From the NCBI GenBank assembly GCA_964019135.1, contig OZ025248.1, forward strand, positions 51,019,670 through 51,083,669: a stretch of DNA of 64,000 nucleotides, in the 5' to 3' direction. The stretch is from Arenicola marina (Eukaryota > Annelida > Polychaeta > Arenicolidae). The translations under genes were made by a program, and so were the position numbers. Below, one piece after another: positions 1 through 64,000 of this stretch (positions are counted from its first letter, which is position 1; each line of letters begins with the position of its first letter). The notes under the pieces are model-generated. The model was not told the origin of the DNA, did no database searches, and saw only the letters and a program-made list of their open reading frames with translations.

Positions 1-3000
1 CTGGTCCACCCTCTGGCATGGGTCATGCTTGGAATACAGGTAACCGTATGTCTAGTCCACCCTCTGGCATGGGTCATGCTTGGAATACAGGTAATCACCT
101 GCCTAGTCCACCCTCTGGCCTGGGTCATACTTGGAATACAGGTAACCGTATGTCTAGTCCACCCTCTGGCATGGGTCATGCTTGGAATACAGGTAATCAC
201 CTGCCTAGTTCACTCTCTGGCCTGGGTCATACTTGGAATACAGGTAACCGTATGTCTAGTCCACCCTCTGGCATGGGTCATGCTTGGAATACAGGTAATC
301 ACCTGCCTGGTCCACCCTCTGGCATGGGTCATGCTTGGAATACAGGTAATCACCAGCCTAGTCCACCCTCTGGCATGGGTCATGCTTGGAATACAGGTAA
401 TCACCTGCCTAGTACACCCTCTGGCATGGGTCATGCATGGAATAAGGTAATCACCTGCCTAGTACACCCTCTGGCATGGGTCATGCTTGGAATACATGTA
501 ATCGTATGTCTAGTCCACCCTCTGGCATGGGTCATGCTTGGAATACAGGTAATCACCAGCCTAGTCCACCCTCTGGCATGGGTCATGCTTGGAATACAGG
601 TAATCGTATGTCTAGTCCACCATCTGGCCTGGGTCATGCTCGGAATACAGGTAATCACCTGCCTAGTCCACCCTCTGGCATGGGTCATGCTTGGAATACA
701 GGTAATCGTATGTCTAGTCCACCCTCTGGCATGGGTCATGCTTGGAATACAGGTAATCGTATGTCTAGTCCACCCTCTGGCATGGGTCATGCTTGGAATA
801 CAGGTAATCACCTGCCTAGTCCATCCTCTGACATGGGCCATGCTTGGAATACAGGTAATCACCTGCCTAGTACACCCTCTGGCATGGGTCATGCATGGAA
901 TAAGGTAATCACCTGCCTAGTACACCCTCTGGCATGGGTCATGCTTGGAATACAGGTAATCGTATGTCTAGTCCACCCTCTGGCATGGGTCATGCTTGGA
1001 ATACAGGTAATCGTATGTCTAGTCCACCCTCTGGCAAGGGTCATGCTTGGAATACAGGTAATCACCTGCCTAGTCCACCCTCTGGCATGGGTCATGCTTG
1101 GAATACAGGTAATCGTATGTCTAGTACACCCTCTGGCATGGGTCATGATTAGAATACAGGTAATCGTATGCCTAGTCCACCCTCTGGCCTGGTTCATGCT
1201 TGGAATACAGGTAATCACCTGCCTAGTCCACCCTCTGGCCTGGGTCATGCTTGGAATACAGGTAATCACCTGCCTAGTCCACCCTCTGGCATGGGTCATG
1301 CTTGGAATACAGGTAATCGTATGTCTAGTCCACCATCTGGCCTGGGTCATGCTCGGAATACAGGTAATCACCTGCCTAGTCCACCCTCTGGCATGGGTCA
1401 TGCTTGGAATACAGGTAATCACCAGCCTAGTCCACCCTCTGGCATGGGTCATGCTTGGAATACAGGTAATCACCTGCCTAGTCCATCCTCTGACATGGGC
1501 CATGCTTGGAATACAGGTAATCACCTGCCTAGTACACCCTCTGGCATGGGTCATGCATGGAATAAGGTAATCACCTGCCTAGTACACCCTCTGGCATGGA
1601 TCATGCTTGGAATACAGGTAATCGTATGTCTAGTCCACCCTCTGGCATGGGTCATGCTTGGAATACAGGTAATCGTATGTCTAGTCCACCCTCTGGCAAG
1701 GGTCATGCTTGGAATACAGGTAATCACCTGCCTAGTCCACCCTCTGGCATGGGTCATGCTTGGAATACAGGTAATCGTATGTCTAGTACACCCTCTGGCA
1801 TGGGTCATGATTAGAATACAGGTAATCGTATGCCTAGTCCACCCTCTGGCATGGGTCATGCTTGGAATACAGATAATCACCTGCCTGGTCCACCCTCTGG
1901 CATGGGTCATGCTTGGCATACATGTAATCGTATGTCTAGTCCACCCTCTGGCATGGGTCATGCTTGGAATACAGATAATCACCTGCCTGGTCCACCCTCT
2001 GGCATGGGTCATGCTTGGAATACAGGTAACCGTATGTCTAGTCCACCCTCTGGCATGGGTCATGCTTGGAATACAGGTAATCACCTGCCTAGTCCACCCT
2101 CTGGCCTGGGTCATACTTGGAATACAGGTAACCGTATGTCTAGTCCACCCTCTGGCATGGGTCATGCTTGGAATACAGGTAATCACCTGCCTAGTTCACT
2201 CTCTGGCCTGGGTCATACTTGGAATACAGGTAACCGTATGTCTAGTCCACCCTCTGGCATGGGTCATGCTTGGAATACAGGTAATCACCTGCCTGGTCCA
2301 CCCTCTGGCATGGGTCATGCTTGGAATACAGGTAATCACCAGCCTAGTCCACCCTCTGGCATGGGTCATGCTTGGAATACAGGTAATCACCTGCCTAGTA
2401 CACCCTCTGGCATGGGTCATGCATGGAATAAGGTAATCACCTGCCTAGTACACCCTCTGGCATGGGTCATGCTTGGAATACATGTAATCGTATGTCTAGT
2501 CCACCCTCTGGCATGGGTCATGCTTGGAATACAGGTAATCACCAGCCTAGTCCACCCTCTGGCATGGGTCATGCTTGGAATACAGGTAATCGTATGTCTA
2601 GTCCACCATCTGGCCTGGGTCATGCTCGGAATACAGGTAATCACCTGCCTAGTCCACCCTCTGGCATGGGTCATGCTTGGAATACAGGTAATCGTATGTC
2701 TAGTCCACCCTCTGGCATGGGTCATGCTTGGAATACAGGTAATCGTATGTCTAGTCCACCCTCTGGCATGGGTCATGCTTGGAATACAGGTAATCACCTG
2801 CCTAGTCCATCCTCTGACATGGGCCATGCTTGGAATACAGGTAATCACCTGCCTAGTACACCCTCTGGCATGGGTCATGCATGGAAAAAGGTAATCACCT
2901 GCCTAGTACACCCTCTGGCATGGGTCATGCTTGGAATACAGGTAATCGTATGTCTAGTCCACCCTCTGGCATGGGTCATGCTTGGAATACAGGTAATCGT

Positions 3001-5065
3001 ATGTCTAGTCCACCCTCTGGCAAGGGTCATGCTTGGAATACAAGTAATCACCTGCCTAGTCCACCCTCTGGCATGGGTCATGCTTGGAATACAGGTAATC
3101 GTATGTCTAGTACACCCTCTGGCATGGGTCATGATTAGAATACAGGTAATCGTATGCCTAGTCCACCCTCTGGCCTGGTTCATGCTTGGAATACAGGTAA
3201 TCACCTGCCTAGTCCACCCTCTGGCCTGGGTCATGCTTGGAATACAGGTAATCACCTGCCTAGTCCACCCTCTGGCATGGGTCATGCTTGGAATACAGGT
3301 AATCGTATGTCTAGTCCACCATCTGGCCTGGGTCATGCTCGGAATACAGGTAATCACCTGCCTAGTCCACCCTCTGGCATGGGTCATGCTTGGAATACAG
3401 GTAATCGTATGTCTAGTCCACCCTCTGGCCTGGGTCATGCTTGGAATACAGGTAATCACCTGCCTAGTCCACCCTCTGGCCTGGGTCATGCTTGGAATAC
3501 AGGTAATCACCTGCTTAGTCCACCCTCTGGCCTGGGTCATGCTTGGAATACAGGTAATCACCTGCCTAGTCCACCCTCTGGCCTGGGTCATGCTTGGAAT
3601 ACAGGTAATCACCTGCCTAGTCCACCCTCTGGCATGGGTCATGCTTGGAATACAGGTAATCACCTGCCTAGTCCACCCTCTGGCCTGGGTCATGCTTGGA
3701 ATACAGGTAATCACCTGCCTAGTCCACCCTCTGGCATGGGTCATGCTTGGAATACAGGTAATCACCTGCCTAGTCCACCCTCTGGCCTGGGTCATGCTTG
3801 GAATACAGGTGATCACCTGTCTAGTCCACCCTCTGGCATGGGTCATGCTTGGATTACAGGTGATCACCTGTCTAGTCCATCCTCTGGCATGGGTCATGCT
3901 TGGAATAACGGTAATCACCAGCCTAGTCCACCCTCTGGCATGGGTCATGCTTGGAATACAGGTAATCACCTGCCTAGTCCACCCTCTGGCATGGGTTATG
4001 CTTGGAATACAGGTAATCGTATGTCTAGTCCACCCTCTGGCATGGGTCATGCTTGGAATACAGGTAATCACCTGCCTAGTCCACCCTCTGGCATGGGTCA
4101 TGCTTGGAATACAGGTAATCACCTGCCTAGTCCACCCTCTGGCATGGGTCATGCATGGAATACAGGTAATCACCTGCCTAGTCCACCCTCTGGCATGGGT
4201 CATGCTTGGAATACAGGTAATCACCTGCCTAGTCCACCCTCTGGCATGAGTCATGCTTGGAATACAGGTAATCACCTGCCTAGTCCACCCTCTGGCATGG
4301 GTCATGCTTGGAATACAGGTAATCACCAGCCTAGTCCACCCTCTGGCATGGGTCATGCTTGGAATACAGGTAATCACCTGCCTAGTCCACACTCTGGCAT
4401 GGGTCATGCTTGGAATACAGGTAATCACCTGCCTAGTCCACCCTCTGGCATGGGTTATGCTTGGAATACAGGTAATCGTATGTCTAGACCACCCTCTGGC
4501 ATGGGTCATGCTTGGAATACAGGTAATCACCTGCCTAGTCCACCCTCTGGCATGGGTCATGCTTGGAATACAGGTAATCACCTGCCTAGTCCACCCTCTG
4601 GCATGGGTCATGCTTGGAATACAGGTAATCACCTGCCTAGTACACCCTCTGGCATGGGTCATGCTTGGAATACAGGTAATCACCTGCCTAGTCCACCCTC
4701 TGGCATGGGTTATGCTTGGAATACAGGTAATCGTATGTCTAGTCCACCCTCTGGCATGGGTCATGCTTGGAATACAGGTAATCACCTGCCTAGTCCACCC
4801 TCTGGCATGGGTCATGCTTGGAATACAGGTAATCACCTGCCTAGTCCACCCTCTGGCATGGGTTATGCTTGGAATACAGGTAATCACCTGCCTAGTCCAC
4901 CCTCTGGCATGGGTCATGCTTGGAATACAGGTAATCACCTGCCTAGTCCACCCTCTGGCATGGGTTATGCTTGGAATACAGGTAATCGTATGTCTAGTCC
5001 ACCCTCTGGCATGGGTCATGCTTGGAATACAGGTAATCACCTGCCTAGTCCACCGTCTGGCATGG
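1..5065. repeat. 51-bp minisatellite array, about 99 copies
   Basis: Tandem units of 51 bp (17 codons) fill this stretch and continue past the left edge. A plus-strand unit reads roughly SPPSGMGHAWNTGNHLP. Two main variants alternate, one with AATCACCTGCCTAG and one with AATCGTATGTCTAG. A few 48-bp units carrying GCATGGAATAAGG recur near 431, 889, 1551, 2417 and 2875. Because 51 is a multiple of 3 and the unit has few stops, several frames on both strands stay open for hundreds of codons. These frames are not evidence of a protein. The right end lies inside a sequence that diverges at GGATCGCG near 5063. Confidence 0.97.
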
Positions 5066-5301
5066 ATCGCGTTGCCACTTTGGGTAGAAGTAACAGCACT
5101 TCAGATGTACTTCATGAACAATCGATATTGGTATCGATGAGATTGCCAATCTGTATACAGCTATAAAAGCTTTGATAATATTGTAATGTAAAAGTCAACT
5201 ATTATATATTTTGTCTGAATAATTAAAATGTACAGCGTTTCTTCACACCGGATTCTGGTCTTTTTTGTTTGACAGGGATCGATATGTATGGACTGCCTAA
5301 C

Positions 5302-5441
5302 CAGCGAGTGCTGTGGACCCCTTGTCCTCTGCCAGATGGACCGGGAACTGCAGAGCGTCGGGATTTGAGTAGACACAACTGTACCGGAAGCTATGGAAGT
5401 CGTCATAGCCCCAAGCCTCCTCGTCACGGCTTGGGCAAAGC
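5302..5441 (-). CDS. Candidate internal exon of an unrecognised gene
   Basis: On the minus strand a frame here reads RDEEAWGYDDFHSFRYSC and continues as VYSNPDALQFPVHLAEDKG. Its amino-acid mix and codon use look like real coding sequence, with no stop. A donor (GCTG|GTTAGG) ends it at 5302. Acceptors are available at about 5429 (CCCAAG|) or 5441 (CCTGAG|). The donor leaves one base, which would join in phase to a possible next exon near 5046-5110, just before the 51-bp array. That would place the array in an intron, or at the exon end, of a gene running off the left edge. I do not recognise the family. The overlapping plus-strand frame (5269-5538) is the less convincing alternative. Confidence 0.4.
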
Positions 5442-32000: not shown

Positions 32001-35000
32001 TAACATGAACGAGTCTTGATAGGTAAATTAGTATAGGCATCATGCACTCTTTGCTCTAAATAATGGCTTCAACGACCAGAATACGCGCTTTACATAGAAG
32101 CCATCTCGGATTACGAGCGACAGACTTGTTTGGGGCTCTACAGCGGTGACGCTTTGACCGCGGAGCGACAGACTTGTTTGGGGCTCTACAGCGGTGACGC
32201 TTTGACCGCGGAGCGATAGACTTGTTTGGGGCTCTACAGCGGTGACGCTTTGACCGCCGTCCCTTACCATGGTCGTGATCAGTCTTGGAGTAGATGGCAG
32301 CACGGATGTCGCGGTCCAGCGAAAGGCATGCGTTACTCGTCGCGTACTCGGGGAATTTCTCCTTAAAAATCTGCAGGCAGTCGAAAGCGTCCTTCGTCCA
32401 GGACAACTCGAATAAGCATTTGGCGAGTCGGAAGTGAGCCTTGAGGTGATCGGGGTCGAGCCGGATGGAGCTCTGGCAGTCCCGCATCGCGGCGTACAAG
32501 TCGCCATCCCTGTGGAACAGTTCACAATGCATAGGACATCGCGGCAGCAGCATTCACCCAACAGCTACAGGCGACATGGGGTCATAACGGGACCCGCAAT
32601 ACCTAAGTTCATGATTAAACGTCAGACTATGTACAACATGGCGCTATAACAATGGAAACAGCAAACTTACAACAAGTACAGCTGCGAATCCATTAGTCTC
32701 ACACAGACGGATGGATGTCAACAAACAACTGTTATCAAACGAATGACTTCGATGTAAACTTCAGCATGAACGTTTTTATATTCATGGGAATTCATATATG
32801 GCTTTGTGCCCAAGATGGTGATCAGTAAACCGTGAACATCATCAACGTACTGGTCGAGAGCAAAACCAAACCAGGATTCACGGAGTATCTAATAAATATG
32901 TATTATTTCGAATTGAAAAAAAAATTGAATCTCGAATCAAATGAAATGATTGTTGTTGAAGTCCGTTTGTGCACACGAGGGTTAAACTAGACAAAACTCC
33001 AGATCAGATCGCCCAGACCGGGTTTTGATCGGAAACCAAGGAGGTAATAACATGCCAGCGAGTGTCCAACCACTCGGCCATGGAGGATGCTCCCTTGAAT
33101 CCTACATCAAGCCAATCTCACCATTTTCTCTTCATGTAGGCGGCGGCCCGGTTGCCATGGAGGATGGGGGAGTCTGAGACCATGGCGAGAGCCCGGTTAT
33201 AGAGATCGATGGCTTCGTTGTATTGCTGCTTCTCGAAGACGGCGTTAGCGGCTTGTTTGATGGCCTCCACGGCAGGCGGCAGCGGCTTCCCGGGGTGCTT
33301 ACTGCAACGACAATCACTTCTGTACATAGAAATAGCCAACTTATTATTTACTGGAATTTAACTGTTAAAAAATATGTATAGTACTGTAAGTGGTCAAATA
33401 CGGTTCCACATTTTCAGGGTGTGAAAAACTGCATAAAGAATTATTATAGGCGCGAATAAGTGCAGTAGAAAGGAAATCGAATTTAAATAAAATATTGTTT
33501 ACAAGAAATGTAGACAATTTCTCCAAGCAATACTCAGAGAAACACATAAATTAACCAATTGTTAAAATTGTTGACATTTTAATAGTGCCATGATCATAAA
33601 ACTCTTAAATTAACCAATTGTTGGTTTAAACATATTTTTATTTGGCAATTGGAAAGCAGGCAAAGCCTATACAAATTCCTCTTGCTTGAAAAATAAGAAA
33701 CATATATTACTTGAAAAATAAGAAACATATATTACAGGCAAACAACTTAATAAACTTGTAGAATTAGTTCACTAAATGACACACTGCGATGGAATTTGTT
33801 GGCTCTCTCTGTGCGTCGTAGTATGGCAAAAGGAAACAGAGTTCGTAAATATACGCGTTCCAACAAGCGAAACTAGGTGTTAAAACGCCTTGTCTTTTCA
33901 ATATACACATGTACAGCTTTAAATATTTCTAAATTTTCTTGCAAAGTTAAGTTGGCATTCCCGAATAAAATGGTTCCGAGTGTAAAACTTGTAATTTTCA
34001 TTACATTTTGCAATAATCTGTCGCGTATGATAGTATACATCGGGCATTCTAAAAAGTAGTGAGTGGTATCTTCACGAGGTGCGCCACAATTACATTGTTG
34101 ATCATTAATTATACACATATCAAAAAGATGAGCCCTTAACTTACTACAATTCATTCTCAGTCGCGAGTGTACAACGTTCGTGCCGCGCCGGCCAAAGTTA
34201 AATAACTTGGAGGTCTCCCTCTTATGACAAATATCCTTATTCACTAAGGCCTGTTTGAAAGTTTTATGGTCGCACATGGATCTTATATTGATAGGTAGTT
34301 CATTCCAGAGCCTTATCACACTTGGTAGAAACGAGTTGTAATAAGAAGAAAGTCGCGCCTTAACGGTCGTGACGTTCAAAGGCAGAGCATTACGAAGCGC
34401 GTAGTGTGTTCTTTGTGTTACATTTTGAGGTAAAATATCGCATAAATAACTTGGGGCGTTCCCATAAAACATCTTGTGAAACAGTAACAATTGAAATCTT
34501 TTACGACGAGCACTCAATGTTTCCCAACCGAGTTCTTGATAGATAAGCGAGTGACTAGTGTGTTTAATCGCCCCGGATACAAGACGGCCTGCTCTCAGCT
34601 GAACGGCTTCTAGCCTGTCAGCGTCCGCCTGTGTGCAACCATCCCAAAGGACACATGCATATTCCATAGTGGGACGCACGAAGGTTTTATACATTAAATC
34701 TAGCGTACCTCGGTTTAACTTGTAACGCAGTCTGGACAACAAATCGACCCTTCTACTCGCCTTAAGACACATTTCACTGATATGAGATGACCATGTGAGT
34801 TTAGAGTTCAAGGTTACGCCAAGATGTTTATGTTGGGTAGTATTTTGTAAAACTTCGCCTCCCATTTGCAATGGCGGTAAATCAGTTATGGGTTTATTGG
34901 ATATGGTCATAGACTTTGTCTTAGGTGCGCTAAACGTTACAAACCACTGCGAGGCCCAGGACTCCATTTTTTGCAAATCACAGTTTAACATATCAGTTCC

Positions 35001-38000
35001 ATCATCCAATTGATCATCATCGTCTACAATGACATATACAGTTGTGTCGTCAGCGAAGAGTCTAATTTTTGACTGTAACCCGTCGACGATATCGTTGATA
35101 TAAACTAAAAATAAAAGAGGACCCAGGACTGATCCCTGTGGAACCCCCGCTTGGATATGACCCAGAGGAGACGCTGCGCCATCAATCACCACACTCTGAT
35201 ACCTGTCATCGAGGTAGTTTTTAAACCAGTCCAGAAGTCTGCCAGTAATTCCAATACGCTTAAGTTTGTGGATAAGACCAACGTGCCAAACACGATCAAA
35301 TGCCTTTGATATATCGCAGAACACAACACGGACAATCTTGCGTTTGTCTAAAGCCTCACTACATATATGATATAGATGGACAAGTTGGTTAACCGTGCTG
35401 TCGCCTGGTATAAACCCAGACTGAAGTCTAGAGAGTATTTCATTGTCACGCAGATAGTTAAACGTATGTTTAAATATAATCCTTTCGAACAGCTTCCCGG
35501 TACAGCTTAGTAGCGAGACTGGCCTATAGTTGTCGACTAGGCTTCTACTACCTTTTTTGAATATGGGGATAACGCTTGCTTGCTTCCACAGACGAGGCAT
35601 CTTGCAATCCTTCAGGCATTCATTAAACAATATCATGAGCGGCTCGCTTATACAAGAGCCGGCTTCGCGTAACATTCGAGGGCTAATCCCATCAGGACCA
35701 CAGGCTTTCTTTATATCTATGCATTTAAGCAGATCGACTACTTCGTCCTGTGTAACAGAGATGTTATTTAAACCCGTGAGCATACAATCACCGTCTGTGT
35801 CTAGGCTGACGCGCTCACTTACATCGAGAGTTGAATGGGATAAAAAGTAGTTATTAAACATAGATGCTTTAGTGTGAGGATTGGACTCAGCTCGACCATC
35901 AGCCTGTAAGACTGGGTACCCGCAACTATCATTTATGCCAAGCATTTGTTTGGAGATGCGCCACCATTTCTTTGGCGTCACAGCGCTTGATTCGTTCAAT
36001 ACACATTCTAAATCATACAAGTAGGTAGCTTTTGCCTCCCTTAAGTTTGTGATATATTCGTTACGCAGTCTTCTGTACTCGGCCCAGTCCGTGTCTCTAC
36101 TGGACTTCCGTGCTTTACCATGAAGCCTGTCAAGAGCCCTCTTTTTACATCTAAGTTCCTTATTAAAAAAAGGTTTATCCTTCGGACGAATAGTAACTAC
36201 CTTGTTTGGAATGAAATCTGTACAGAAGCTAAGAAACCGCGACGTCCACGCCTCACACATAGTATCTGGGTCCCCGGACAGAAACCATTCGCTCCAGTTC
36301 GTATGTGACAGAGCTTCACGAAACTGATCAAAGTCGGCTTTGTCATAATACCAAACCTTGCGTTTGTAGCATTTAGTCGTATGCGATTTAAAACTGAGTT
36401 CACAAACAATCACAGAGTGGTCACTAGTGGTGACTGGTGTGAGAATGTCAACATTCTTTACCAGGTCAGTAGGGGTGCTTAAAAACTGGTCTAAAATGGA
36501 CTTTGAACGAGCGGTAACGCGCGTAGGCTTGTCTACATGGATCTTCATGTGATTATTGTTTGCCAAAGTGAGCATATGCAAATGATGACTTGGGTTTGTT
36601 ACTTCGTCTGCATTAAGATCACCTGTCAATAGAATGTTACAGTCGAGATAGCACTTGGCGTTGTCAACGTTGATTTGAAGTGTGTCCCAAAACCCGACAG
36701 GAGAACTTGGTGGTCTGTAAATCCCACAAAATAAGAACTTGTTATTGCCTATAAGACATTCTAACCAAATGCTCTCGATATCCCCTGCCTCAAGATCAGT
36801 TCTACGTGTGGCCAGTATACCATCAGAGACCCATACCAAAACTCCGCCCCAGGTCCCTGCTATTCGATCTCGGCGAAAGGGCTGTTGGTAACCTGAAAGA
36901 CTAAAATCGACAATAGAAGCCGGATTTAAGTGCGTTTCAGTTATGCAATTAATACCGTGGCTACCAACAAAGTTCGCAGTAATATAGTTCATTTCATCGT
37001 CGTGCAAGCCGTTCACGTTCGCATGACACACAGAAACAGCTCTGACAGACTGGACTCTGGGACCCCGACCTGGGGAGGGACCAGGATTCATGGCAATATC
37101 GCCCGAACATAATCGCGTTTTTACAGAGGACACGTGTTCCAGCAGCTTCTCACATTGGGTCGGACACATTACATCGGGCATCTCGCAGATAGTCTAAGGA
37201 AAAATAAGGAGCAGAAGACTAAATCGAGTTGAACACGAGAGAGTAAAATACAGCAGTACATAGTAACAGGACATCGGTAGGTCGCTTCGTGAATGTACAT
37301 GTATGAAATTTAAATTGATTGCAAAGAAAAACAAAACGAGAACGCGAGAAAATATAGCAGGTGTTAAAACCAGGCGATGTGCGGGCGAGAAGCAGTGATA
37401 TGCAAGTACAACTCTTTAACCCTATGTACATTTCGTGCGGCTACGGGTAGAAGCTCACGGTCAAAACAAACAGAAGCGAAAACAGGGAAGAAAGGAAGGA
37501 AAGAAAATAAAAATGGAAATGGACCCCTCGCGGTGTCACCCAACTGTTGGCAGTGATTATGTCGCTAACATGCTGTCAGCTGCGACTTGACGCAGTAGTT
37601 AATTTCAGGTAAGTGGTTACCATTTCAACAGTTGTTGGAATACCACTTGAAAGAACCGCTTTAACTCAAGCGGAGTTTTTCACGTCAGAGTCTAATTTGG
37701 GGAGGGATCGTAATTGGAAAGGCTGGCTAATTACGTAGAGGGTCTTCAGACCAAGCCTTCCAATGATGACTCAATCAGCTTGAAGCCGCTTTGTCCTAGC
37801 TGTGCGCTGTTCGTTGATATTGTAAGGAATATGGCGACGCTGTCAAGCTGGTGACGCCGCATCAGGTACCGAAGGTGACGCCCCGCTCCATGAGCTCCGT
37901 CGTCCTGCCATCCTTCTGTTGTTTCTTGCGATGGGCACGTGTCCTTGAAGCGAAAGGCAGAGGTCACATGGGCAGCCTCCTGCCTGGCGGGGTCCAGCAT

Positions 38001-41000
38001 CAGAGCCCTGTAAGCGGCTCGGACGTCTCCAATAGAGCTCACGGGGATTTTAGTCGCAGTTATCGAGACGCTGCCAGAGCTGGCAGTGCGGCCTGTTGAG
38101 CTGGTAATGTGACTGGAGAGCTTTTCTCTTTCCGAGATCGAAATGTGCAAGATATCCTTGGGTGACGGCTTGGGAAGGGGGTCCCTTTGCAACTGGCCAT
38201 TGATCCAAAGACTGTCTTTAGTCAATTTTATCGTAACCGGTGTGACGCCTGCCTTCATTTTCACATCCGCAATCTTCTCACTAAATCGGCGTCGTTTTTC
38301 TATCGTATCAATTGGATATTGCGGAGTGATTTTACCCTGATCATGGCCCTTCTTTCTCTGAGCTCTGCCATACTGCAGTAGTGTATTGGCACCCTTTTGA
38401 GTAGCGAAGCGAACAACTATTGGCCTGGGTCTTCCCAAGAGTTTGTCAAGTAGTTTGTCACAACATGTTCACAGTCCTCTGTAGCCCTCTTCTCCACACT
38501 TTCAGGAATATTGTGCAGTAGGACATTGTGTTTCATCGAGCGCAGATAAAAAATTGTTAACTTGTTCATGTGATGTTACGCCACAAAATGCAACAAAAAA
38601 AACAGCCATGGTTCGTGCATGTGTATGGCCGTGACCATAGCTGCAGAGAAGTTGTGAAAAGATCCAATATACCAACCGTTTAGATCTTCTGCTCCCCTCC
38701 TTCTCTTGAGCGCTGGATGCCGGCATGTGTTTTCCTGTCACGCCATTATTCGTCGTCCCGTTCACCGGTGGCAGTGTGAAGCCATTACTGTGTGAACCAC
38801 CAGTCTCTGAATGCAGCACACCAACAAATGATTACCCTTGGCTTAGGTGCACATGATGGAACTGAATTCCAAGCGAGCACAATATAACTATATTTTATAT
38901 AGATATCAAGTTGACATGTACTCTTATTCCAGTCCATCTACTCCTATAATATCAGACACTTTAAATAAATAACAATATACCACATTTGTTAACAAATGGC
39001 ACAAGAATGAGCAGCGTGACTACACGTGACTAAACTGGGTACGAGTAAACACCTTTTACGACGCCGTTGGTTCCTGGCCGGAGTGGTAACTGGAATTTGT
39101 CGACTTGTCTGGGTTTGTTAACATTAAACAGGTAAATTTGCTCCCCTCCCAGGTTCACCAGCAGCTCATTTCCGTCCGCGCTAAAGTTGAGGTAGGTCGA
39201 CGCCAGGGTTCGATACTTCTTCTTGTAGTCATGTAACTTCTGCGGTAAATGCCCTGTGGTTGGATGAACACAAATTTAAGTTCTCGGTCGGGGAGCGATG
39301 ACGCAATGTCAGCCAGCGGATTGCGTCAAAAAGCCGTGGCTTTAAACACAACTGTAGAAATCCAAACAGTTCCTGGGAGGTGTATTCCGTGCTCATAACA
39401 TAACAAGCTGGGAACTACAGATGTTTGGTACAACAGAACATGGGTATGTATTGGGCATTTCCCCAAATGACAGTGTATCCACAAAAGTACTGGACCCACT
39501 ACCGACCTGCTACTAAGTACTGGACCCACTACCGACCTGCTACAAAGTACTGGACCCACTACCGACCTGCTACTAAATACTGGACCCACTACCGACCTGC
39601 TACTAAGTACTGGACCCACTACCGACCTGCTACTAAGTACTGGACCCACTACCGACCTGCTACAAAGTACTGGACCCAATACCGAACTGCTACGAAGTAC
39701 CGGACCCACTACCGACCTGCTACGAAGTACTGGACCCACTACCGACCTGCTACAAAGTACTGGACCCACTACCGACCTGCTACTAAGTACTGGACCCAAT
39801 ACCGACCTGCTACGAAGTACCGGACCCACTACCGACCTGCTACGAAGTACTGGACCCACTACCGACCTGCTACTAAGTACTGGACCCACTACCGACCTGC
39901 TACTAAGTACTGGACCCACTACCGACCTGCTACTAAGTACTGGACCCACTACCGACCTGCTACTAAGTACTGGACCCACTACCGACCTGCTACTAAGTAC
40001 TGGACCCACTACCGACCTGCTACGAAGTACCGGACCCACTACCGACCTGCTACTAAGTACTGGACCCACTACCGATCTGCTACAATGTACGGGACCCACT
40101 ACCGACCTGCTACTAAGTACTGGACCCACTACCGACCTGCTACGAAGTACTGGACCCACTACCGACCTGCTACAAAGTACTGGACCCACTACCGACCTGC
40201 TACTAAGTACTGGACCCACTACCGACCTGCTACTAAGTACTGGACCCACTACCGACCTGCTACTAAGTACTGGACCCACTACCGACCTGCTACTAAGTAC
40301 TGGACCCACTACCGATCTGCTACAATGTACGGGACCCACTACCGACCTGCTACAAAGTACTGGACCCACTACCGACCTGCTACAATGTACTGGACCCACT
40401 ACCGACCTGCTACAATGTACTGGACCCACTACCGACCTGCTACTAAGTACTGGACCCACTACCGACCTGCTACTAAGTACTGGACCCACTACCGACCTGC
40501 TACAATGTACTGGACCCACTACCGACCTGCTACAAAGTACTGGACCCACTACCGACCTGCTACAATGTACTGGACCCACTACCGACCTGCTACAAAGTAC
40601 TGGACCCACTACCGACCTGCTACAATGTACTGGACCCACTACCGACCTGCTACAATGTACTGGACCCACTACCGACCTGCTACTAAGTACTGGACCCACT
40701 ACCGACCTGCTACAATGTACTGGACCCACTACCGACCTGCTACAAAGTACTGGACCCACTACCGACCTGCTACAAAGTACGGGACCCACTACCGACCGGC
40801 TATGAAGTATTGGACAAACTACCGACCTGCTACGAAGTACCGGACCCACTACCGACCTGCTACAAAGTACTGGACCCAATACCGAACTGCTACGAAGTAC
40901 CGGACCCACTACCGACCTGCTACGAAGTACCGGACCCACTACCGACCTGCTACGAAGTACTGGACCCACTACCGACCTGCTACGAAGTACTGGACCCACT

Positions 41001-44000
41001 ACCGACCTGCTACAAAGTACTGGACCCACTACCGACCAGCTATGAAGTATTGGACGCACTACCGACCTTCTACAAAGTACCGGACCCACTACCGACCTGC
41101 TACGAAGTACTGGACCCACTACCGACCGGCTATGAAGTATTGGACTTACTACCGACCTTCTACAAGGTACCGGGCCCACTACCGACCTGCTACGAAGTAC
41201 TGGACGCACTACCGACCTGCTACAAAGTACCGGACCCACTACCGACCTGCTACGAAGTACTGGACCCACTACCGACCTGCTACAATGTACGGGACCCACT
41301 ATCGACCTGCTACAAAGTACGGGACCCACTACCGACCTGCTACAAAGTACCGGACCCACTACCGACCTGATACAAAGTGCTGAACCCACTATCAACCTGC
41401 TACAAAGTACCGGACCCACTACCGACCTGCTACAATGTACGGGACCCACTACCGACCTTCTACAAAGTACTGGACCCACTACCGACCTGCTACAATGTAC
41501 GGGACCCACTACCGACCTGCTACAAAGTACTGGACCCACTATCAACCTGCCTCAAAGTACCGGACCCACTACCGACCTACTACGAAGTACTGTACCCACT
41601 ACCGACCTGCTACAATGTACGGGACCCACTACCGACCGGCTACAAAGTACGGGACCCACTACCGACCTGCTACAATGTACGGGACCTACTACCGACCTGC
41701 TACAAAGTACTGGACCCACTATCAACCTGCCTCAAAGTACCGGACCCACTACCGACCTACTACGAAGTACTGGACCCACTACCGACCTGCTACAATGTAC
41801 GGGACCTACTACCGACCTGCTACAAAGTACTGGACCCACTACCGACCAGCTATGAAGTATTGGACGCACTACCGACCTTCTACAAAGTACCGGACCCACT
41901 ACCGACCTGCTACGAAGTACTGGACCCACTACCGACCGGCTATGAAGTATTGGACTTACTACCGACCTTCTACAAGGTACCGGGCCCACTACCGACCTGC
42001 TACGAAGTACTGGACCCACTACCGACCTGCTACAAAGTACCGGACCCACTACCGACCTGCTACGAAGTACTGGACCCACTATCGACCTGCTACGAAGTAC
42101 TGGACCCACTACCGACCTGCTACAATGTACGGGACCCACTATCGACCTGCTACAATGTACGGGACCTACTACCGACCTGCTACAAAGTACTGGACCCACT
42201 ATCAACCTGCCTCAAAGTACCGGACCCACTACCGACCTACTACGAAGTACTGGACCCACTACCGACCTGCTACAATGTACGGGACCCACCACCGACCTGC
42301 TACAAAGTACCGGACCCACTACCGACCTGTTACTATGTACTGGACCCACTACCGACCTGTTACTAAGTACTGGACCCACTACCGACCTGCTACGAAGTAC
42401 TGGACCCACTGCCGACCTGCTACGAAGTACTGGACCCACTATCGACCTGCTACGAAGTACTGGACCCACTACCGACCTGCTACAAAGTACTGGACCCACT
42501 ACCGACCTGCTACGAAGTACTGGACCCACTATCGACCTGCTACGAAGTACTGGACCCACTACCGACCTGCTACAAAGTACTGGACCCACTACCGACCTGC
42601 TACGAAGTACTGGACCCACTATTGACCTGCTACGAAGTACTGGACCCACTACCGACCTGCTACAATGTAGGGACCCACTATCGACCTGCTACAAAGTACG
42701 GGACCCACTACCGACCTGCTACAAAGTACGGGACCCACTACCGACCTGCTACAATGTACTGGACCCACTACCGACCTGATACAAAGTACTGAACCCACTA
42801 TCAACCTGCTACAAAGTACCGGACCCACTACCGACCTGCTACAATGTACGGGACCCACTACCGACCTGCTACTAAGTACTGGACCCACTACCGACCTGTT
42901 ACTAAGTACTGGACCCACTACCGACCTGCTACTAAGTACTGGACCCACTACCGAACTGCTACAATGTACGGGACCCACTACCGACCTGCTACAATGTACG
43001 GGACCCACTACCGACCTGCTACAAAGTACTGGACCCACTACCGACCTGCTACAATGTACGGGACCTACTACCGACCTGCTACAAAGTACTGGACCCACTA
43101 TCAACCTGCCTCAAAGTACCGGACCCACTACCGACCTACTACGAAGTACTGGACCCACTACCGACCTGCTACAATGTACGGGACCCACTACCGACCTGCT
43201 ACAAAGTACCGGACCCACTACCGACCTGCTACAATGTACGGGACCCACTACCGACCTTCTACAAAGTACTGGACCCACTACCGACCTGCTACAATGTACG
43301 GGACCTACTACCGACCTGCTACAAAGTACTGGACCCACTATCAACCTGCCTCAAAGTACCGGACCCACTACCGACCTACTACGAAGTACTGGACCCATTA
43401 CCGACCTGCTACAATGTACGGGACCCACTACCGACCTGCTACAAAGTACTGGACCCACTACCGACCTGTTACTAAGTACTGGACCCACTACCGACCTGTT
43501 ACTAAGTACTGGACCCACTACCGACCTGCTACTAAGTACTGGACCCACTACCGAACTGCTACAATGTACGGGACCCACTACCGACCTGCTACAAAGTACT
43601 GGACCCACTACCGACCTGCTACAAAGTACGGGACCCACTACCGACCGGCTACAATGTACGGGACCCACTACCGACCTGCTACAATGTACGGGACCCACTA
43701 CCGACCTGCTACAATGTACGGGACCCACTACCGACCTGCTACAAAGTACTTGGATGGATGGATTCGTTTACTCAACAAAGTGTTACATAATAAGACTAAC
43801 CGAACGATGTTTGTATAACTATCACACTTAGTCGAGGAGACTCTAGTTAAGGCCGTGATAGGCCGCTGGCACTAGAGCCACCTAATAAATTAAATTTGGT
43901 AAATGATGACCCTATTTAAGAGAGAAAAAAGAAAAAAACAAACAAACAAAAAACGACAGGAATAGGCTAGGAAAAAAAAAAATAAATAACAACTTGCGCT

Positions 44001-47000
44001 ATTTGATGGTCAAACATACAAAGCAAAACGTACAAAAGCATTTGGTACATAATTGAAAAATTGAATTGAATTGAAAAATAAAAAATAAAATAAAATAAAA
44101 CCCCCTATGCTTGACACACAAAACAGTTTTGTATATCACACTCTATTGGGTAGTCATTTATCATAATTTGTTTAATAAATTGAGAGAATCCCTGTAGACT
44201 ATGTGTGTAGATTTTATCTAAGATGGATTTAGGTTCATGATTTATTACATATACTAAACTATGTCTTATACATTTAGTAGCATATTGATGGTGTGCACGG
44301 GTTGTTTGAACCAAATATTTACCCCTGGTGTTGTATGAGTGTACACTTGAAAGCTGGGCCAGTGGTATTTGCTCAAAGTATATTGGAAGTTTTTTATTTA
44401 CTAGTTTATAGTAAAATTTTAGAGTTTGCAATCGATGAATATCTTTAGCTTTTAGTAATTTAAGATCTTGGAACAAAGGATTCGTGTGTGCGTTATATTT
44501 ACTGCCGGTTATTATCCGCACAGCTTTCTTTTGTAGCTTTTCCAATCGTTGTGTTTGGTAACCCCAGGCTAAGATACAATAGTTTAAGTGTGGTAACAGA
44601 AGCGTTTTATAAATTGATAACAGCGTATGTTGCGGAAGGATATACTTAGATCTGCTCATGATTGCAATTACTTTACATACTTTAATTGCTATTTTATTTA
44701 TATGGCTATTCCATTTTAAGGTTTTCTCTATAGTTAACCCGAGCATATTAAATTCGCCCACACATTCGATAGACGTTGTACCAATCACAAGTTTGGGAAT
44801 ATCAATTTTTTTTCCCGGCATGTAAAAGGGCATAAATTTACATTTATTCGAGTTCAGAGCCAATTTATTTATTGCCAGCCATTGGCCAATTTTGCTCAAT
44901 TCTCCATTTAGCATTTCCGCACTGGTCTCATGAGATGATATTGGTAAATTTGCGTTTAATGTGCTCAGAAGGGTTGTGTCATCCGCGTATATAATAAATT
45001 TAAAAATGTCACTGGCGGATGTTATGTCATTTATGTATATTATAAATAAAAGAGGACCTAGAATAGAGCCTTGTGGAACGCCAGTGTGAATATTTAAATT
45101 ATTAGACCTGGTATCTTCAAGTTGCACGTATTGTTTTCTGTCGCAGAGATAACTTTTAATGAGCTTTAAAGAGGTTGAATTCAGGCCATAATGCTTTAGT
45201 TTATGTAGAAGTATATCATGATTTATTGTATCGAATGCCTTAGACAAATCCAGATATATATTTATCGGAATTTCCCCGTTATCCATTTTTTGTAGAGTCT
45301 GATCAATTAGTTCAAGGCAGGCAAGTTCCGTGGAATGTTTTGGTCTAAAACCGTATTGGCTGTTATTAAATAATTTGTTATCATCAAAATGTGAATAAAG
45401 TTGATTAGCGATAACTTTCTCAAAAATCTTAGAAAAGGCTGGTAGTATTGATATAGGTCTATAGTTATTAAATACATCATTTTTCCCACTTTTAAAAATT
45501 GGAATCAGGGAAAATACCGGTTGACAACGCTTGATTAATTATTAGTGTAAGGGAGGCACTAACTTCCTGGTTGATAGCTTTGAGCAGCTTCACCGATATA
45601 TCATCATGACCACAACTTGTTTTAGGCTTTAAAGCATCAACTATTTTATTCGTTTCAGATATATCGATTGGTTTTAAATGCAGTTGATTCAAGCAGGGGT
45701 TCCTCAAATAAGTTTTAAACGAGCCACTGGTCTGCTTACTTAATGTCTTGGTTAAACTAGGGCCGATATTGGTAAAGAAATTATTAAAGCCACTAGCTAT
45801 TTTTGATTTATCTCTTGTTTGCTGACCATCAATTAAAAAACATTCAGGAAATTTCCTTTTGTTTGTTGACTTATTGATTATTTCTCCAAGCGCTTTCCAA
45901 GTTTGCTTCATATCAGTTTTACAAGATTCAAGTATTCCAAAAAAGTATTTTTTTTTTGCGGCTTCGATGTTACGTTTCAGTATCTTGTTATATGTGTGTA
46001 AATTGGTTTTTAATGTGTGATGTATCAATGTATTAGGGGACGTTTCTTTTAGCTTTTTGTATAGTTTATCACGAAATGATATCGATTTAATGATTCCATT
46101 CGTTATCCACTTGGCTTTTTTATGTTTACGTCTATTGTATTTAACTGTTTTTAATGGTAGATGCTTGTCTTTGAGCAGAGATATCTCATTTTCTATGATT
46201 TGGTAGTTTAGATTAGGATCTAATAACATTGTCTTATCAAGTTTGCCGTAAATACTTGACCCACTACCGACCTGTTACTAAGTACTGGACCCACTGCCGA
46301 CCTGCTACAATGTACGGGACCCACTACCGACCTGCTACAATGTACTGGACCCACTACCGACCTGCTACAAAGTACTTGACCCACTACCGACCTGTTACTA
46401 AGTACTGGACCCACTACCGACCTGCTACGAAGTACTGGACCCACTACCGACCTGCTACGAAGTACTGGACGCATCCTGCAGGAAGACTGTAATCCACGCC
46501 AGGTGTCGCTTCCGGCTCGACGTAAGGACGCTCCCACGGCATTCTGCCAAGGAAGTCATCACAATAGATCCATGGTGATCGTCATTCAGGACTGGCATCC
46601 ATGTTTGATGTAACTGGCGTAATAACGCATTGAGGCTAGCCATGCCAATACGCGGCTTAGTGCATGACCGACCACTGACACAATAATAATAATAATAATA
46701 ATAATCAGTTTATTGCCAAAAGAAAACACAAATTACATTCATTGAGTACATCTTTACAATACATTTATAGTGGCAAGAGCAGAAGCCAAAGGCTTATTCG
46801 CTCGTATATGGTGAACGTGGTTAGAGTTGAAATTGATTTGCCAGCAAGCTAACAAAGAAAGAAAGCGAGAAGAGAACAGTCAAAAGTAAATAATTAAATA
46901 AATAAACATAAAAGTAAAGGAGCCATTGAATGTTGATTAAGGTCTAGCACAGCTAGCCACAGTAAAAAAAAAAAAAAAAAAAAAAAAATACACCAATACT

Positions 47001-63142: not shown

Positions 63143-64000
63143 TGCATTACTGCTCCCCCCCATCAGTCATCATTGGGCAAGCCGTCGCGGTCTTGTATTA
63201 CTGCTCCCCCGCATCAGCCATCATCGGACAGGCCGTCGCGGTCTTGAATTGCTGCTCCCCCGCATCAGCCATCATCGGACAGGCCGTCGCGGTCTTGCAT
63301 TACTGCTCCCCCGCATCAGCCATCATCGGACAGGCCGTCGCGGTCTTGTATTGCTGCTCCCCCGCATCAACCATCATCGGACAGGCCGTCGCGGTCTTGT
63401 ATTACTGCTCCCCCGCATCAGCCATCATCGGACAGGCCGTCGCGGTCTTGTATTACTGCTCCCCCGCATCAGCCATCATCGGACAGGCCGTCGCGGTCTT
63501 GTATTGCTGCTCCCCCGCATCAGCCATCATCGGGCAGACCGTCGCGGTCTTGCATTACTGCTGCCCCGCTTCAGCCATCATCGGGCAGACCGTCGCGGTC
63601 TTGCATTACTGCTGCCCCGCATCAGCCATCATCGGGCAGGCCGTCGCGGTCTAGTATTGCTGCTCCCCCGCATCAGCCATCATCGGGCAGACCGTCGCGG
63701 TCTTGTATTACTGCTCCCCCGCATCAGCCATCATCGGGCAGACCGTCGCGGTCTTGCATTACTGCTGCCCCGCTTCAGCCATCATCGGGCAGACCGTCGC
63801 GGTCTTGCATTACTGCTGCCCCGCATCAGCCATTATCGGGCAGACCGTCGCGGTCTTGTATTACTGCTCCCCCGCATCAGCCATCATCGGGCAGACCGTC
63901 GCGGTCTTGCATTACTGCTGCCCCGCATCAGCCATCATCGGGCAGGCCGTCGCGGTCTAGTATTGCTGCTCCCCCGCATCAGCCATCATCGGGCAGACCG

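Follow-up and report, generated by a model that had tools for sequence, protein, structure and literature searches.

How does the spliceosome find the end of an exon that is followed by close to 150 copies of its own splice donor? The question is raised by the WDTC1 gene on the minus strand of the 64,000-nucleotide stretch of DNA analysed here (contig OZ025248.1 of assembly GCA_964019135.1; hereafter the window), in which a 30-bp tandem array starts inside a 92-nt exon and continues into the following intron. We consider it probable that the array belongs with the border-spanning minisatellites known in lancelets as 'mirages', its exon end and donor having been duplicated, amplified to about 150 units, split by a retrotransposon and tolerated as intron. 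Experiments on how one of several identical 5' splice sites is chosen mostly rely on minigenes of two or three copies; in WDTC1, a single short exon is followed by 142 donors that are nearly identical.

Results

The exons of WDTC1 can be traced from about 49.1 kb to 29.1 kb of the window, where the C-terminal end (...VNCRPS) is encoded. Joined together, they give a protein of 694 residues, in which some exon ends were guessed and the start-codon exon was not located. This protein had 1111 relatives at E <= 0.001 in a protein similarity search, and among the 120 of them that were listed, most of the named ones are WD and tetratricopeptide repeats protein 1. The exon that carries the array (46452..46543, minus strand; MPWERPYVEPEATPGVDYSLPAGCVQYFVAG) ends in VQYFVAG, lies between the acceptor CTTGGCAG/A and the donor GTAGCAG/GTCGGTAG (the slash marks the splice junction), and looks from its sequence like real coding sequence; its last 19 bases (46470-46452) form the exon part of repeat unit 1. 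The next exon (HLPQKLHDYKKKYR...GTNGVVK; 39053..39253, minus strand) follows the acceptor CCAACCACAG/GG, and the two exons joined read VQYFVAGHLPQKL, with the junction VAG/HLP. A plain text search found GHLP in 40 of the 44 other rows of our WDTC1 tree and no match in the other four. On the basis of this conserved junction, the productive donor is placed at 46452/46451, the putative authentic donor CAG/GTCGGT thus occupying 46446..46454 of the minus strand with the exon ending at 46452, and the exon is indicated to predate the array, in line with the first-pass annotation, which had argued for the older exon from its conservation; the protein is indeed conserved across animals. The calculated pairing of this donor with U1 is -7.7 kcal/mol, against -4.3 to -10.3 for the other WDTC1 donors as typed.

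Tandem Repeats Finder describes the array, at period 30, as 142.3 copies at 39484-43750 and 7.3 copies at 46253-46470. Counted in register, a proximal block adjoining the exon (46253..46470, minus strand) holds 7 complete units and a distal block (39484..43750, minus strand) holds 141, giving 148 complete units plus partial ones, a repetition that is far beyond chance. Each unit, GTCCAGTACTTNGTAGCAG/GTCGGTAGTGG, consists of 19 exon and 11 intron bases. The earlier description of some 150 copies of exon end plus intron start, beginning inside this exon, is therefore borne out, and so is its statement that nearly every unit carries the donor: the GT is intact in 142 of the 148 units, and the exact CAGGTCGGT (CAG/GTCGGT) is present in 108. 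The loss of GT from a few units was also correctly noticed; it concerns six units, four of which carry GCAGTTCGG and two GCAGATCGG. Just past the donor, 141/148 units hold an in-frame TAG, as had been claimed, so that later donors would read into a stop; the first one lies 5 nt beyond the normal exon end. There is no clear sign that the donor columns are either maintained or purged: their mean variability is 3.6% versus 6.9% for the other columns, the medians are 4.1% versus 2.7%, and the donor 9-mer window ranks 11th of 30.

The array had been taken for one continuous block, which is not the case. On the minus strand at 43757..46252 (ends approximate), a retrotransposon, recognised by its RVT_1 domain (E 1.6e-35) and probably of the non-long-terminal-repeat type, is inserted in a unit and parts the proximal from the distal units. 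Its 3' end is ATCCATCCATCC, and the flanking AAGTATTT and AAGTACTT look like an imperfect target-site duplication. Since this element occupies about 46.25-43.76 kb inside the array, only 7 units adjoin the exon. The 141 distal units fall into 39 distinct types, runs of which recur; there are block duplications within the array, for example a 6-unit run that reappears 27 units away, and such recurring distant runs fit unequal exchange.

Elsewhere in the gene, a 48-bp repeat of three copies (32115..32257, minus strand) begins at about intron base 11 after the WDTC1 exon ...AIYSKTDHDH; it adjoins a donor, assigned by eye as CATG/GTAAGG, without containing exon sequence. Inside a later WDTC1 intron lies a retrotransposon-like open frame of 1106 residues (33873-37193).

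Probable origin and tolerance of the array

The account that we favour starts from what is observed, that is, the anatomy of the array, the conservation of exon and junction, the near-equal donors, the stop, the insertion and the recurrence of border arrays in other genes described below. The first event would have been the tandem duplication of a short segment comprising the end of exon 46543-46452 and its donor, followed by amplification to about 150 units through unequal exchange or slippage and, after that, by insertion of the retrotransposon. The spliceosome would use the donor nearest to the exon's own acceptor, as expected from exon definition on a 92-nt exon, and the array would be tolerated because each copy of exon end plus donor is intron as long as this exon-nearest donor is used. 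Copies could then accumulate on the intron side while selection holds the first copy only. A tandem copy across a donor would in this sense be self-hiding, and arrays might hence grow where arrays within an exon could not. Use of a later donor would translate as V-A-G-R-stop and yield a truncated message that is probably destroyed; leakage to donors 2-7, presumably rare, would lengthen the exon to between 122 and 272 nt and bring in a stop 5 nt beyond its normal end.

Several points weigh against this account, in which the exon-side donor is most likely the productive one. When two equal donors compete in classic experiments, the intron-proximal one is often preferred, and on this ground the later units would be favoured if exon definition did not dominate. 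Donor 1 does not stand out in predicted RNA accessibility (0.0041, versus a mean of 0.0063 over 103 interior exact donors), and accessibility was set aside as the cause of donor choice, as the prediction gave no difference. In another stretch, L017 (L-numbers denote our stretches and C-numbers our contigs), the flank of an array with a weaker donor was inspected for the same reason as that of the 64-bp array described below, and no exon was recognised there. Moreover, more units of a border repeat in human CBS go with lower activity, according to the available text of PMC5188458, so that the leak in WDTC1 may not be negligible.

In a more functional reading, which we regard as unlikely, array length tunes the output of WDTC1, because a measurable share of transcripts is spliced from donors 2-7 or from donors beyond these, runs into the TAG and is broken down. 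It would agree with the retention of GT in 142/148 donors and of TAG in 141/148 units, and with the dosage sensitivity of WDTC1/adipose in fly and mouse. The lower enzyme activity that goes with more units of the CBS border repeat (PMC5188458, as far as its text was available) points the same way. However, conservation of the donor columns is not clearly above that of the other columns, and with the retrotransposon in place only 7 units remain near the exon. It is highly improbable that the array is removed by recursive or self-shortening splicing, in which the donor of a unit would be joined to the CAG of another, restoring the same donor and shortening the array in the RNA with an unchanged product. 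While an AG directly precedes the GT in the units, and the consensus unit scores -0.3 as an acceptor on a crude home-made scale, close to the 0.05 and 0.85 obtained for the authentic exons on either side, the three other WDTC1 acceptors scored gave 3.0 to 6.15, and neither a pyrimidine tract nor a good branch point was seen in the unit.

About 30% of a 200-kb sample of this genome consists of tandem arrays, which would suit a dispersed satellite or mobile repeat that landed at the border by chance. Such an origin is nevertheless extremely improbable, as the exon part of the unit encodes conserved WDTC1 residues and the unit was hardly found outside this locus. The first-pass annotation had named the same array at unrelated loci as grounds for abandoning its reading; our search of the genome (867 Mb in 762 contigs, scoring the best candidates only) returned 33 matches, 31 of them here and two weak ones, at 68-69% identity, in another array on C9. 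The latter were considered as a second copy of the WDTC1 array and rejected, for the 32-bp array in which they fall is a different one; it has CAGGTCGGTA in common with the WDTC1 array, on the opposite strand from its own sushi-like exon. That the assembly misstates the copy number, the real array being shorter or longer, is very unlikely in our view: although long arrays are often mis-sized in assemblies and the count comes from a single one, the window is free of N, and the 39 unit types among the 141 distal units, with their repeated runs, speak against it.

Border arrays in other genes of the genome

A border-spanning minisatellite in WDTC1 has a close neighbour. A 51-bp array, the distal part of which fills 1..5065 of the window on the plus strand, starts 2.5 kb to the left of the window (stretch L010:7193-9670) inside an exon of a PLAC8-family gene, the last exon of which (GSICMDCLTSECCGPLVLCQMDRELQSVGI, followed by the stop codon) lies at 5276..5368 on the plus strand. 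Its approximately 148 units comprise the last 20 exon and the first 31 intron bases around the donor CAG/GTAATC, and CAGGTAA occurs 125 times in all. Pfam recognised a PLAC8 domain in three joined exons (E 7e-14) and gave no match for one short exon of this gene alone and three other pieces. Translation from the exon onwards meets no stop for 445 codons, or about 26 units. Within 60 kb, two genes thus carry about 148 border copies each with opposite coding consequences, a stop in nearly every unit of WDTC1 and an open frame through the first 26 or so units of the PLAC8-family gene; several smaller cases exist besides. At the other end of the window, a further 51-bp array extends over nearly 8 kb with about 155 copies (63146-64000 and stretch L011:1-7048), and no exon was recognised by eye at either end of it.

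On C9, a 26-bp and a 32-bp array (stretch L009, 1-1537 and 3646-8089) each start inside the end of a minus-strand sushi-like exon and each repeat the donor of their own exon, the latter in 139 copies; GTGAGT occurs 50 times and GAGGGTATG 106 times in this stretch. The Sushi domain match has an E of 1.3e-8 for the exon at the 32-bp array and of 0.0062, short of the cut-off, for that at the neighbouring 26-bp array. For a 64-bp array in stretch L026, the donor in the unit led us to expect an exon beyond the right edge, and the fetched flank showed a rhomboid-like exon (Rhomboid domain, E 1.9e-7 when joined to a neighbouring piece). This exon ends CATAGCAG/GTAGTGAC and the array begins inside it (L026 8071 to L032 888), CAGGTAG being found 44 times in the 44 copies. 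Inside the same 4 kb, a 167-bp repeat of five copies (L032 2272-3110) reiterates the greater part of a second exon, donor included (GAGGTGAGA, 4 times). A further repeat, of 115 bp and 1.8 copies (L032 1542-1752), reiterates a third exon, the second copy being without donor. Judging by the order of the exons, the 167-bp exon probably belongs to the same gene as the rhomboid-like exon.

In stretch L014, a 68-bp array straddles the end of an open coiled-coil-like frame, and a 31-bp array begins at the first intron bases after an open frame. The best coiled-coil match there (4.4e-5, 24 bits against a cut-off of 29.1) is sub-threshold, as is the weak domain match (0.076) of an exon in L021, so that both loci were judged by their splice sites and open frames alone. 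Arrays also occur on the acceptor side: an 82-bp array (L027 1-643) stops 7 nt short of the final exon of a papain-family protease (Peptidase_C1, E 2.3e-10), and a 56-bp array (L021 1926-2244) spans the acceptor of a membrane-helix-like exon. Stretch L025 contains an array with a GTAAGT-bearing consensus.

How general such borders are was addressed in 20 stretches of 10 kb (L012-L031), 19 of them spaced regularly along C1 and one taken from C2, in which arrays were counted at a period of at least 10 and at least 4 copies. The load is high, with 49 arrays covering 30.5% of the 200 kb, and with some 30% of the sample in tandem arrays, border arrays may simply be tolerated by-products. At least five of the 49 (two in L014 and one each in L021, L026 and L027) carry a recognisable exon border inside the array, at its edge or no more than 7 nt from it, Pfam support being confined to those in L026 and L027; this is a lower bound, as the remaining 44 were screened with crude scores and, in part, by visual inspection. 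The two best donor-scoring units of the sample (L014, 68 bp; L026, 64 bp) do sit on exon-like sequence. Typical gene numbers would let two or three border arrays be expected by chance, a rough estimate in view of which no enrichment is claimed. Donor-like sites in 35 suitable array units were compared with dinucleotide shuffles and showed no excess (mean p 0.53, 0/35 at p <= 0.05), so that most of the sampled arrays are not shown to be donor-derived, and exon-like structures at array starts likewise showed none (5/125 edges scored >= 12 versus 3.25 expected). We may speculate, while regarding it as rather unlikely, that splice-border amplification is a genome-wide mode of intron growth in this spiralian, with many genes carrying 5- to 150-fold donors or acceptors, the exon-side copy always being chosen, and array length serving as an inherited control over how much leaks into dead-end products, as in WDTC1, or in-frame extended ones, as in the PLAC8-family gene.

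Further features of the assembly were also observed. COX1 lies on contig C762. Small contigs such as C443, C465, C504 and C652 encode kinase domains in which TAG and TAA occur several times in frame; a ciliate, or another associated or contaminating organism whose stop codons are reassigned, would be expected to show this. Contig C3 holds dozens of similar single-frame kinase-like matches between about 14 and 57 Mb, most of them at 45-57 Mb, in what looks like a lineage-specific expansion.

Comparison with known systems

The closest relatives of the WDTC1 array in print are the lancelet mirages of Adh3, BflGb6, BflGb9, troponin C and other genes, which the available text of PMC3087553 describes as minisatellite-like duplications of exon-intron borders on the 5' or 3' side, reverse-transcription PCR suggesting that regular splicing is undisturbed; PMC3902484, as far as available, names Adh and troponin C and compares PGBD5. 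As in WDTC1, where the unit spans exon end and intron start and the units carry the splice signal, many mirage units contain AG/GT and several genes of one lineage are concerned (PMC3087553, PMC3902484). The BflGb6 mirage, in contrast, has 6 and 3 units in two haplotypes and a cephalochordate host, whereas the host here is a spiralian whose WDTC1 is 54% identical to that of Branchiostoma. Identity of the window protein is indeed higher to a chiton (66%), a nemertean (66%) and one further row (68%) than to Branchiostoma lanceolatum. In a maximum-likelihood tree of 45 WDTC1 rows with midpoint root, it groups with two rows (98/94) inside a 30-row set of molluscs, annelids, nemerteans and a brachiopod (100/98), with Branchiostoma placed far away. 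LSM10 from the window, examined as a species marker, gave 15 hits, the best of them at 51%, and was uninformative. A lancelet host, which the mirage literature would have led one to expect, is thus ruled out by WDTC1 similarity and by the position of the tree row within Spiralia.

For the border repeat of human CBS, alternative donors were reportedly found in use by Lievers in 2001. This 31-bp variable number tandem repeat, c.1444_1467+7(16_21), lies at the exon 13/intron 13 boundary (PMC2630376, PMC5188458) and, by its name, has a unit of the last 24 exon and first 7 intron bases, so that, like the WDTC1 array, it holds the border in each unit and has a similar unit length. It comprises 16-21 copies as opposed to about 149, and the available text of these reports mentions no retrotransposon. 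In the same gene, a duplicated intron 7/exon 8 junction still yields normal mRNA (PMC2630376, in the part available). Minisatellites with units of about 30 bp are also described at human exon-intron boundaries in segmental duplications (PMC2812944); these share with WDTC1 the unit length and, in some cases, the border position, and according to the available text they differ in having about 4 copies on average, in residing in recent paralogues and in having formed new introns.

That the WDTC1 array would be a singular oddity is not supported, in view of the like anatomy of lancelet genes and human CBS and of the further cases in the same genome. Intron gain by tandem genomic duplication creates a new intron, whereas the WDTC1 array multiplies an existing conserved junction. 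Tandem duplication and AGGT are common to both (PMC4974935, as far as available). In the available text of papers on intronic minisatellites of the earthworm and C. elegans (PMC12783039, PMC4039745) no border arrays were found, and the open-access literature, to which our search was confined, yielded in its available parts no border array of the size seen in WDTC1 and none in a spiralian.

Taken together, the kind of structure is already known, best from lancelets, and what is new is its scale, the insertion of a retrotransposon, its recurrence in the genome and its host, the last of these suggesting that minisatellites across splice borders also occur outside lancelets and vertebrates.

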